In this document: in pieces, positions 52,801-54,828 of the stretch
Layout: the number at the start of each line of letters is the position of its first letter
Position numbering within the stretch: position 1 is the stretch's first letter
Assembly (NCBI GenBank): GCA_019055375.1
Contig: JAHQIW010007140.1
Span: forward strand, 62,001 to 126,000
Reading direction: 5' to 3'
Source of the DNA: Parelaphostrongylus tenuis
Taxonomy: Eukaryota > Nematoda > Chromadorea > Rhabditida > Metastrongylidae
Length of the DNA: 64,000 nucleotides
Program-made: the position numbers and the translations under genes
The notes under the pieces: model-generated
Seen by the model: only the letters and a program-made list of their open reading frames with translations
Told to the model about the DNA's origin: nothing
The model's database searches: none

Positions 52801-54828
52801 TGGGGTGCGTGCTATCACCATCACCGACAAAGCCACCGATTTGCTTCGAAAGCTTTGCACACCACTCAAATATGCCTCGGATATGCAAAACTACCATTGT
52901 ACCACTGCTATGACAGCGGTAAAATGGAATAAATCTACAAAATTCTAAATAAATCTAACGAGGATAACGTCTACTTTTCGCTCTGCCTAGTTGAATATTC
53001 CTTGAGCTATTGTTTTACTAGTACTTTCACAACAGAACATGTCCTATTGAGGGGATTAAGAGGAAGATCAGGTGAAGCATTTCAATACTTTTCAGCTGAT
53101 CAAAAAAGCTCTCATCAACGACGGGTCTAGGCGGAATATAAGCTGAGAGAATGAGTAGATCACATACCAGAGACGTCAGATAACTCGTAAATCGTGTCTT
53201 AAAAGAGACGGAAAGAACTGTAAGGCGCCCAGAACAACTAAACATGGTTATTCCCCTAATTTAACCTACCAATAATTATTACACTTCGCCCTATAAAATT
53301 GAATATCCCCACCCAATATTTTTTCTACTACTTTCTCAACAGAATAAGACTTGCTGGGAAGAGGATAAAGCTCAAGAGAAGCATTTCAACACCTTTCAGC
53401 CAATCAATAGAGCTCTCATTAACGGCGGGGGTCTAGGCGAAATAGAAGCTGAGAGACAGTGAATAAATGACATCAGAAACGAAGCCTTAGACGAAGAGAA
53501 CCGTAAAAGGAACAAAACAACAAAACATGACACGCCTGATTTGACCTACCAGTAACAATTACTCTTCGCCCTATAACACTGCTGCTACTCTTCAGAGAAA
53601 TATTTTACTATAATCAGTCAGAATTCTTTTTTTATTTTGACTGCCACTTGCAGTAGCATGATATTGATATACCCAATAATGTGGAGTGCTGTGCAAAAAC
53701 ATTTGCACCAGCCGGAATTCGAACCCAGATCTCACTCTTTCCTGAAGCGTATGCTAAAAGAAAGAGTGAGATCTGGGTTTGAATCCGGGCTGACGCAAAT
53801 GTTTTTGCACAGCACTCCACATTATTGGATATTTTACTATACTTTCTCAACAGAACAAGACTAAGGGGATAAAGCATGGGTAAAGCGATTCAAACACCAA
53901 GCAAAGCTCTAATCAAAAGAAGATCTAGGTGAAACAGGAGCTGAGAGAGTGAATAGATAAATGGGATATAAGAGGCGTCAGATCACTCGTAAGAGTTAAA
54001 AGATACGAGGGATAAAAAAGGATAAAACACAAAGCTCTCGGCGCTGATCAATCCCTGAAAAATGCGCCATGCATTCTTCTCCGATTATAACTTCGCTCGA
54101 GGTGCCTGAATGCATACCTGACTCTTACAATGACTCGCGGTGGCCTCCCGCTGTCTCAAGTCAGTGATGTTTATTCTCCTAGACAAGTCTGCTGTAATCA
54201 GTCCGGTACCAATTTCCGACCCCGGGGGAGGGGGATGGACGGCCTGATCAGCAATGAGCGCGTGGTCGAACCACCGATCTTATGTGCGACGCACAGCACC
54301 TCTAACCACTGCGCCATGTACGCGTCGTGTTAAGGGAGCGGGATAATGCTCAAAAAAGGCATTTAGGTGAACAAAGCTCTGATCATCGGAGGATCATCTA
54401 GGCGAAATGGAAGCTGAGAGAACGAATAAACAACATATCAGAGACGTCAGATCACTCGTAAAGCCAAAAAAGAGACGAGAAAGAAATGGCCCGCGCCGAT
54501 TTGACCTACCTTTCCTCGTGATCGAATCCGGATGAAGAGTTGCTCCCATAGCGATTCATCGACACCTCACGCTCATCCTCATCACTCAGCGGAGCACCTG
54601 AAATCGATCGATCGATATCCGAGCACATCGAGTGGTCGGTCCGGCTGCCGTTGCCACCCACACACAATCAACACTACTATGGATTTCTGGCAAAAACAAG
54701 CCCCTCTTGGGGGGGCCACATACTTATTGATCGGATAAAAAATCGATATCAATAGATCAAATTCGTCGCGAACCATTCAGCTGTTCGATGGTGTTCGACA
54801 CGGGAAATCCACTGTGGTACAGCGCCAT
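46695..54828 (-). CDS. mnk-1: MAP kinase-interacting serine/threonine kinase (MNK; eIF4E kinase), 13 exons
   Basis: A cytoplasmic kinase whose family phosphorylates eIF4E downstream of ERK/p38. Exons in transcript order: 54828-54774, 54597-54510, 52532-52285, 49441-49344, 49261-49157, 49091-48935, 48877-48744, 48688-48495, 47899-47764, 47695-47589, 47497-47305, 47189-47010, 46826-46695. All phases match, giving about 608 residues. The start is MALYHSGFPVSN. A basic stretch (RSPRNRTRSGSH) precedes the kinase domain. Key residues: glycine loop GAGAYASV (141-148), K163, E180, HRD with D256, and DLD at 277-279 in place of DFG (family hallmark). An MNK zinc insert has C354, C359, C367, C370. GSAEFMAPE is the P+1 region. 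The activation loop has Ser-Pro (S304) where vertebrate MNKs have Thr-Pro. If the last intron is kept, the protein ends VGLV-stop at 46995 (569 aa). The symbol follows the C. elegans family name. Confidence 0.9.
48878..48934 (-). other. 57-nt in-frame intron in the MNK catalytic loop
   Basis: The frame stays open straight through, but 19 extra residues would sit between FLHDRG and IAHRDVKPEN, where no MNK has an insertion. GT...TTTTTTCAATCTAG boundaries and a clean join (DRG|IAHRD) show that it is an intron. Its length is a multiple of three and it has no stop, so a naive gene predictor would keep it. Confidence 0.85.
50190..50550. repeat. Foldback element, family D
   Basis: AAAGTTGTTAATGAAAGTATTTATC...GGTGTTTCGGTGGTATCACC on the left pairs with GCACCGCCGATACG...GAATACTACTTATTAACAACCTCGC on the right. 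It lies in the largest MNK intron. Confidence 0.6.
50680..50880 (-). pseudogene. mariner transposase N-terminal fragment
   Basis: The - strand frame contains FFAEFRAGNTNLKD followed by GRPREVDQLAFIEAV, the mariner helix-turn-helix/GRPR linker region. It lies in the MNK intron between 49442 and 52284. No TIRs found. Confidence 0.6.
51315..51945. repeat. AT-rich repeat block with direct and inverted copies
   Basis: ATGATTACCAGGCATATTGAAATTTGAGCTGTGGTCTTAAGAAAAC occurs at about 51549 and again at about 51865 (direct, nearly identical over 65 bases). Its inverse TGGTAATCATTTTTGAGCCACGC occurs at 51334. An irregular ATA/TAATA tract (51365-51530) lies between. All are in the MNK intron 49442-52284. 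Confidence 0.7.
52740..52880 (-). repeat. Family B tRNA-like element
   Basis: AAATTCGACTCAAGCAGGAGTCGAACTCGCG (inverse B box) followed by GCGTGCTATCACCATC and a family tail, in the MNK intron. Confidence 0.55.
53671..53830. repeat. Family B near-perfect palindrome
   Basis: The left arm CCAATAATGTGGAGTGCTGTGCAAAAACATTTGC...GAATTCGAACCCAGATCTCACTCTTTC is inverted at the right as GAAAGAGTGAGATCTGGGTTTGAATCC...GCAAATGTTTTTGCACAGCACTCCACATTATTGG. Arms are about 70 bases with a short centre (CTGAAGCGTATGCTAAAA). Confidence 0.85.
54030..54325 (-). repeat. Family A tRNA-derived SINE
   Basis: The + strand starts AAGCTCTCGGCGCTGATCAATCCC and ends AACCACTGCGCCATGTACGCG. It lies in the MNK intron 52533-54509. 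Confidence 0.75.

Follow-up and report, generated by a model that had tools for sequence, protein, structure and literature searches.

A tRNA-like element of Parelaphostrongylus tenuis occurs as head-to-head palindromes with an anatomy like that of Penelope-like elements

The window analysed here is a stretch of 64,000 nucleotides (64 kb) from the genome assembly of the nematode Parelaphostrongylus tenuis (481.5 Mb in 5,105 contigs; the window is C4826:62001-126000). It contains three palindromes, at 53661-53840 (self-identity 86%), 46270-46490 (84%) and 11673-11848 (69%). When folded as RNA, each of them surpasses every one of 300 length-matched random windows in stability, with the best random window (-127.4 kcal/mol) close to the value of 46270-46490 (-130.4 kcal/mol), and 53661-53840 folded as DNA has a z of -18. 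The pattern of the element's tail has six matches in the window with up to three mismatches, compared with none expected.

A sequence-only reading had described the three palindromes, at 11683, 46270 and 53671, as head-to-head tRNA-like units. All three are real, and the arms at 53671 and 11683 are indeed tRNA-like 3' halves with a B box followed by the tail, placed head to head with the tails outward. The description suits 46270 less well, where the arms hold little tRNA sequence and consist mostly of tail and flank, with a tRNA 3' half on one side alone. These arms extend about 70 bases beyond the 'tail', since the tail sequence itself is longer than had been noticed. The features in the window are as follows.

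53600..53612, no strand: left target-site duplication ATATTTTACTATA, an exact 13-bp repeat
53613..53665, minus strand: 3' end of the sense strand, with the A-rich end GAATTC..AAATAAA and the stem-loop tail (site B end), from alignment with 37 fetched relatives
53668..53742, minus strand: sense arm with the tRNA 3' half (B box) and IR2 (TTTTTGCACAGCACTCCACATTATTGGGTATA), 95% to the family consensus
53743..53759, minus strand: loop, made up of what remains of the D/anticodon side of the tRNA and contiguous with the tail-bearing arm, from the junction parse
53760..53828, plus strand: inverted arm (site A end, without tail), 95% to the consensus on the opposite strand
53829..53841, no strand: right target-site duplication ATATTTTACTATA, an exact 13-bp repeat
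46027..46038, no strand: left target-site duplication AAACATTTGACA of the composite insertion, an exact 12-bp repeat
46039..46110, minus strand: tRNA 3' half and IR2 of the long inverted part (the earlier 'single unit 46042')
46117..46279, minus strand: leader/link with IR1, tRNA 5' half and 5' region of the unit, 73% to the link consensus
46284..46324, minus strand: stem-loop tail, second unit of the inverted part
46333..46362, minus strand: IR2 of the inverted part, beside the palindrome centre
46371..46427, plus strand: sense arm of the composite, with tRNA 3' half and IR2
46436..46489, plus strand: stem-loop tail and A-rich 3' end (site B) of the composite
46490..46501, no strand: right target-site duplication AAACATTTGACA, an exact 12-bp repeat
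11673..11738, minus strand: left arm of an old palindrome, its tRNA-like part reaching about 11770
11783..11895, plus strand: right arm of the old palindrome with a degenerate tail
15404..15520, minus strand: single unit, 5' truncated in the leader, with a site A end
8674..8790, minus strand: single unit, degenerate
62193..62334, plus strand: single unit with tail

The palindrome at 53671 is a single insertion (53613-53828) bounded by identical 13-bp target-site duplications. Copies of the 12-bp AAACATTTGACA (46027-46038 and 46490-46501) flank 46039-46489, and the unit at 46042 and the palindrome at 46270 are therefore the product of one event. Single units had been regarded as the ancestral form of the family; this is too simple, because the unit at 46042 is part of a palindromic insertion. 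Both ATATTTTACTATA and AAACATTTGACA have exactly two occurrences on the plus strand of the window. No target-site duplication was detected at the 11683 palindrome, where the longest flank match is 7 bp, and the flanks of 11673-11895 and of the single units in the window gave no convincing one; the 11683 palindrome is old and diverged.

Weak, old further copies of the family lie near 30992, 35600, 52730 and 59261. An iterated family model, contaminated by inverted arms, was used solely as a pointer to old copies and never for counts. The window also has many other near-palindromes. Between 9110 and 9706 lies a mariner reading frame with a Mos1-type HTH and a 94% match to a P. tenuis protein over 28% of its length; the stronger protein matches of this frame, at 50-68% apart from one at 34% lower in the list, are unnamed or generic or carry the label of a bacterial metagenome bin. 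An Rfam match to MIR5565 at 46313-46449 (54.7 bits, below the cut-off of 80) was taken as a hairpin artefact, and pattern scans of viral and bacterial collections gave no match.

A genome search with 53661-53840 rendered 2,418 candidates, and each of the best 40, which were scored and include the window, matches both strands over most of the query. The 36 regions fetched cover 37 of the 39 other scored places (those on C4043 and C4039, with scores equal to that of C4050, are the remaining two), and all 37 are palindromic. The palindromes are in place in all 36 regions, with lengths of 147 to 293 bases and self-identities of 73-93%, and a second place within one region (L011) also parses as a palindrome. 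They are thus not isolated curiosities of the window, and the proposal that a tRNA-related retroelement has repeatedly been made into a hairpin holds genome-wide, with a shared structure. Because the 36 regions were found with the query 53661-53840, their junctions lean towards the query's own.

A sample not chosen for palindromes consisted of the window and twenty 10-kb stretches of two contigs, 264 kb together; the contigs were known from palindrome matches and the stretches were placed on a fixed grid. The sample contains 51 arm matches at E<=1e-3, and adjacent arms show a head-to-head bias: pairs within 100 bp are head-to-head in seven cases, tail-to-tail in none and direct in two, with corresponding counts of 9, 1 and 6 within 300 bp and of 10, 1 and 7 within 600 bp. 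Head-to-head pairs within 300 bp account for 18 of the 51 arms. Rough scaling from the two contigs and the window suggests that the number of arms genome-wide would be of the order of 90,000. The available portion of the paper on the published P. tenuis assembly (491 Mb in 7,285 scaffolds) gives 3,590 annotated SINEs, or 0.05% (PMC10940269).

The family is best read as a roughly 300-base non-autonomous element with a tRNA-like core. In the numbering used here the consensus unit has 300 bases, with a link at 1-167 that includes the tRNA 5' half, an arm at 168-242 made up of the tRNA 3' half and IR2, and then the stem-loop tail. The consensus RNA fold is a cloverleaf on an extended stem (z=-6.4). 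Homology to tRNA, including the A and B boxes, is seen in seven of 11 relatives examined, with nine Rfam tRNA matches above the cut-off of 29 and a best score of 58.9 bits over the whole cloverleaf. The best Rfam tRNA score in the window is 25.1 bits (unit 46072-46145), below that cut-off, and ARAGORN found no tRNA gene in the window. The unit has no ORF for RT and GIY-YIG and no mobility ORF of its own.

The fetched relatives have a common layout of tail-less end, inverted arm, loop, sense arm, stem-loop tail and A-rich end. Several loci are composite, with two direct units linked by the link in addition to an inverted part. Direct tandem units with an inverted 5' unit are found in L014, L025 and L037, and the mirror form in L016, L033, L041 and 46039-46489, the last with an inverted part that is the longer one.

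Flanking duplications of at least 8 bp were found in 26 of 44 elements, compared with 7.6% when flanks were mispaired, and the longest exact flanking repeat has a mean of 8.9 bp against 5.8 bp for mispaired flanks; the 44 include the duplicates L008/L013 and L028/L042. A second procedure, run without a control, found duplications in 23 of 44. In 22 hand-listed cases the mean length is 11.5 bp and the AT content 73%, compared with 59% for the window. The length varies between 8 and 14 bp, and the duplications are short and AT-rich like those of Penelope-like elements (PLEs). One duplication encloses the whole palindrome, not one for each unit, which rules out independent adjacent insertions, an alternative that the sequence-only reading had set against its own proposal.

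Junctions were analysed in 41 independent palindromes, with the near-duplicates L011b, L013 and L042 left out; the 11683 palindrome was not parsed. Insertions end either at site A, just after GGGTATA, or at site B, after the tail. The two ends are A and B in 39 insertions and B and B in two (L017, L032), while A/A, expected 9.3 times if the ends were independent, does not occur; the family thus displays the optional tail between two 3' ends that is known from PLEs (L057 counts as tail-bearing under lenient scoring alone). In the composites L016, L033, L041 and 46039-46489 both arms of the inner palindrome carry tails, and an A end lies outside. At the 5' junction the final bases of the duplication resemble the template past the arm more than chance would allow, with a microhomology of 1.24 bases against 0.55 (p=0.0006; 21 of 23 elements, with L009 and L018 skipped).

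The two arms of an element carry the same rare variants and therefore have one source. Minor alleles common to both arms number 24 in 36 elements (the 41 minus 46270 and the L044, L052, L054 and L057 palindromes), where 2000 permutations gave a mean of 7.0 and a maximum of 16, and 13 rare alleles are present in both arms compared with 2.25 expected. Arm divergence is 7.8% within elements and 10.1% between elements.

Breakpoints are varied, with 37 distinct pairs in the 41 palindromes. The pair 169/139 recurs at different sites in L008, L014 and L041, and the pair 169/153 in L015, L022 and the 53671 copy, in which the sense arm reaches consensus 153 and the inverted arm 169. The breakpoints of 46270, 53671 and the five parsed palindromes of the 264-kb sample all differ. 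The shorter arm ends at consensus 164-173, which is the anticodon loop and the apex of the RNA hairpin, in 30 of 41 palindromes, but the query that led to the 36 regions is itself folded there; folding at these positions is seen in none of the five parsed palindromes of the sample.

Palindromes were oriented by hand on the basis of the tail, and the choice is arbitrary where both arms carry one (L016, L017, L032, L033 and L041). In 30 of 41 palindromes the loop is a continuation of the tail-bearing arm, in 10 of the inverted arm and in one of neither; without six that are composite or ambiguous in orientation, the counts are 25, 9 and 1 of 35. Snap-back reverse transcription, suggested earlier as the origin of the hairpins, fits the 30 loops (25 of 35) but fails for the 10 (9 of 35) and for composites like 46039-46489. 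The reversed loops and the composites with a longer inverted part rule it out as the sole cause.

PLEs are described as combining an inverted 5' unit with direct tandems, an optional tail, head-to-head palindromes and a short duplication (PMC3846280), which is the combination seen here, and the genome was therefore searched for the PLE endonuclease. Of 1,723 candidates in the GIY-YIG search 150 were scored, with open frames of up to 902 amino acids; among these 150, neighbours within 5 kb are head-to-head in 20 cases, tail-to-tail in none and direct in two. Five PLE loci belonging to two lineages were fetched, the choice being guided by long frames or a differing match length and not random. 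Open frames of 894 and 813 amino acids in L064 and L065 have RVT_1 and GIY-YIG domains, and PLE relatives are found in Necator, Ancylostoma and Haemonchus.

L067 is a PLE palindrome with 1,650-bp arms that are 98.5% identical. Its loop of 374 bases belongs to one arm, an extra end of 59 bp is confined to one arm, and the duplication measures 12 bp. L065 has its own 3' end inverted at its 5' end and a 13-bp duplication, and L066 has a 469-bp inverted arm with the 5' flank outside the fetched stretch. Three of the five PLE loci thus carry inverted copies and show the anatomy of the tRNA element. L064 has direct 52-bp repeats only and no inverted copy, and no inverted copy was found in L068 within the 1.8 kb fetched. 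Comparison of the element with the five PLE loci of the two lineages gave no significant DNA similarity and no common recognition sequence. A regular expression for what we take to be the hammerhead ribozyme core matched all five PLE loci and none of 36 palindrome loci; Rfam is uninformative on this point because its scan of two of the PLE loci themselves gave no hammerhead.

The explanation that we regard as probable is that a tRNA-derived non-autonomous element is inserted by PLE machinery, with both target strands priming and the products joined head to head. The element RNA would have a tRNA-like core with an acceptor stem lengthened by flanking inverted repeats, followed by the stem-loop 'tail' and an A-rich end. 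The PLE machinery would insert this RNA after a staggered cut of 8-14 bp, preferably at AT-rich sites, and reverse transcription would begin at site A or at site B. With both target strands as primers, two antisense cDNAs of the same source RNA might grow towards each other until they are linked by their heads, in many cases close to the top of the tRNA hairpin, and gap repair would then leave one palindromic insertion inside one target-site duplication.

The PLE protein of Anolis cuts and extends both target strands in vitro with a preference for AT-rich DNA, and a 'tail' is delimited by the two internal sites at which it initiates reverse transcription (PMC11167929). Top and bottom strands are reported not to differ in start site in that study, which therefore does not predict the A/B pairing (PMC11167929). 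For PLE palindromes in rotifers, self-priming on an antisense template is the mechanism preferred by the authors (PMC3846280). Self-priming fits 30 of 41 loops here, which counts against priming by both strands.

No sequence common to the element and the five PLE loci was found, and we therefore infer the PLE enzyme as the mover; the element has no mobility ORF, no significant similarity to those loci and no hammerhead-like motif, so the assignment rests on anatomy. Priming by both strands, instead of self-priming by a folded-back cDNA, is likewise the presumed step. The element appears to be PLE-like in its insertion and is not filed as a PLE because it has no ORF for RT and GIY-YIG. The chances are about even that this SINE-like family parasitises the PLE reverse transcriptase and is for that reason routinely inserted as a hairpin, its short copies recording PLE insertion in vivo. 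Hairpin insertion would be routine because the PLE enzyme is proposed to use both strands of the cut target as primers, at two sites on the RNA.

Two RT-like frames in the sample, presumably RTE-like, mean that another enzyme is available. An ordinary tRNA SINE might be moved by a LINE of the RTE or L1 type, with the inverted 5' ends arising through twin priming that reuses the template or through snap-back of the first cDNA, and single duplications of variable length, 5' truncation and junction microhomology would be consistent with this. Twin priming of human L1 with duplications at the inversion breakpoint is also described in the available portion of one report (PMC12350158). Such an origin is nevertheless unlikely, since the joint occurrence of inverted 5' copies, direct tandems and an optional stem-loop tail is a PLE signature that is present in PLE copies of this genome, while the stretches around the two RT-like frames (L051:1-4000 and L062:5000-10000) have no inverted self-match at 1e-8. 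The tail, moreover, matches only its own family among 57 sequence records examined, and no LINE there shares that 3' end.

That palindromic master copies are transcribed and amplified as such, so that the hairpin is rarely made and often copied, is improbable. The 2,418 candidate matches, the consistent 5' end and the recurrence of 169/139 and 169/153 at different sites are in its favour, but amplification of masters accords poorly with 37 distinct breakpoint pairs in 41 palindromes and with the differences between all of 46270, 53671 and the five parsed sample palindromes. None of the 39 other scored places matches the 53671 copy at more than 90%, and the two elements with the same breakpoints differ from it in their inserted bases (0 and 13, not TT), one of them, L015, belonging to a TA-deletion subfamily.

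An origin at the DNA level, by inverted duplication or quasipalindrome correction after insertion of a single SINE, is very improbable: the full unit is already a partial hairpin (z=-6.4 for the consensus RNA fold) and could be a substrate for template switching in replication, but the target duplication lies outside the whole palindrome and some inverted parts exceed the direct arm in length. Hardly credible is a DNA transposon of the foldback or MITE type, bounded by long terminal inverted repeats, the 'new class of MITE' of the sequence-only reading, because inverted repeats at both ends and a window rich in near-palindromes are outweighed by a duplication that varies between 8 and 14 bp instead of a fixed length, a tail at one end instead of symmetric ends, arms that fold at different points, direct tandems and the strong tRNA similarity of relatives.

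With insertion by PLE machinery as the preferred reading, the element can be compared with known systems. It resembles PLEs of the EN+ clade, such as Pen2a_Av of Adineta vaga and Poseidon PAc of Anolis, in its shorter inverted 5' unit, direct tandems, optional tail at one end and head-to-head junctions (PMC3846280; PMC11167929), and in its short target duplication, which in rotifer PLEs is 8-10 bp and missing in some copies (PMC3846280). Unlike PLEs it has no ORF, a tRNA-like core, no hammerhead-like motif and no sequence match to the five PLE loci.

As in tRNA-derived SINEs, there is a tRNA-like part with A and B box, an A-rich 3' end and short target duplications. The element differs from these SINEs in that its units also occur in tandem and head to head, have a leader before the tRNA and end at either of two alternative 3' ends, and in that its stem-loop tail is unmatched to any LINE in the 57 records. 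Animal retrozymes are linked to PLEs; going by the partial accounts available, they too are small, non-autonomous, structured RNAs and possibly PLE-dependent, whereas the present element has a tRNA-like core in place of a hammerhead and mirror-image insertions. The 5' inversions made by L1 twin priming, as generally understood and as described in the available portion of PMC12350158, likewise combine one insertion, one duplication and an inverted 5' part; here, in contrast, most of the direct arm recurs in the inverted part, and the ends are confined to two narrow zones. Among the matches listed from the open-licence literature on palindromic, hairpin, inverted or dimeric SINEs, on tRNA SINEs of nematodes and hookworms, on twin priming of SINEs and on PLE-dependent tRNA elements, there is, in the portions available, no family of this kind.

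The origin of inverted PLE copies is unsettled, with self-priming favoured in the rotifer study of 2013 (PMC3846280) and both-strand cutting and extension demonstrated in vitro in 2024 (PMC11167929). An element that is short, is present in many copies and has kept clear junctions and intact duplications allows the models for PLEs to be separated statistically. The family constitutes a large stock of genomic hairpins in the genome of this parasite and, if the proposed reading is true, tRNA-derived passengers would join the dependants of PLEs.

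Similar flanks were found in the palindromes of the tRNA-derived family when the fetched regions L008 and L013, the regions L028 and L042, and the two copies within region L011 were compared pair by pair, and each pair therefore probably represents later DNA-level duplicates derived from one insertion. In region L044 the tail, a stem-loop near the 3' end of the element, is tandemly repeated at 2142-2323 with a repeat of about 97 bases, and this array sits inside a palindromic insertion with a 9-bp target-site duplication (TATGAACAA).

Palindromes in the window are also built from other repeats. 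The near-palindromes at 766-1042, 25926-26191 and 31408-32028 resemble each other and constitute one further, MITE-like family. The palindrome at 56127-56534 consists of a different repeat, which also adjoins the palindrome of a Penelope-like element (PLE) at locus L067.

Protein-coding traces include a mariner-type reading frame with a Mos1 HTH (9110-9706), which is 94% identical to one Parelaphostrongylus tenuis protein with 28% of the length covered, and a protein kinase exon (Pfam Pkinase) on the minus strand at 48732-49091, presumably resembling an MNK-type kinase.

A PLE relic at 7494-7985 displays about 67-70% identity to the PLE loci L064-L066 from the same genome and contains a single hammerhead-like motif (7850-7877). 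The palindrome at 4737-5027 has weak PLE similarity (65% across 4660-4804). The palindrome at 58018-58368 is possibly a head-to-head copy of a PLE: its arm matches sequence of the PLE pLTR and includes a hammerhead-like motif (58270-58297).
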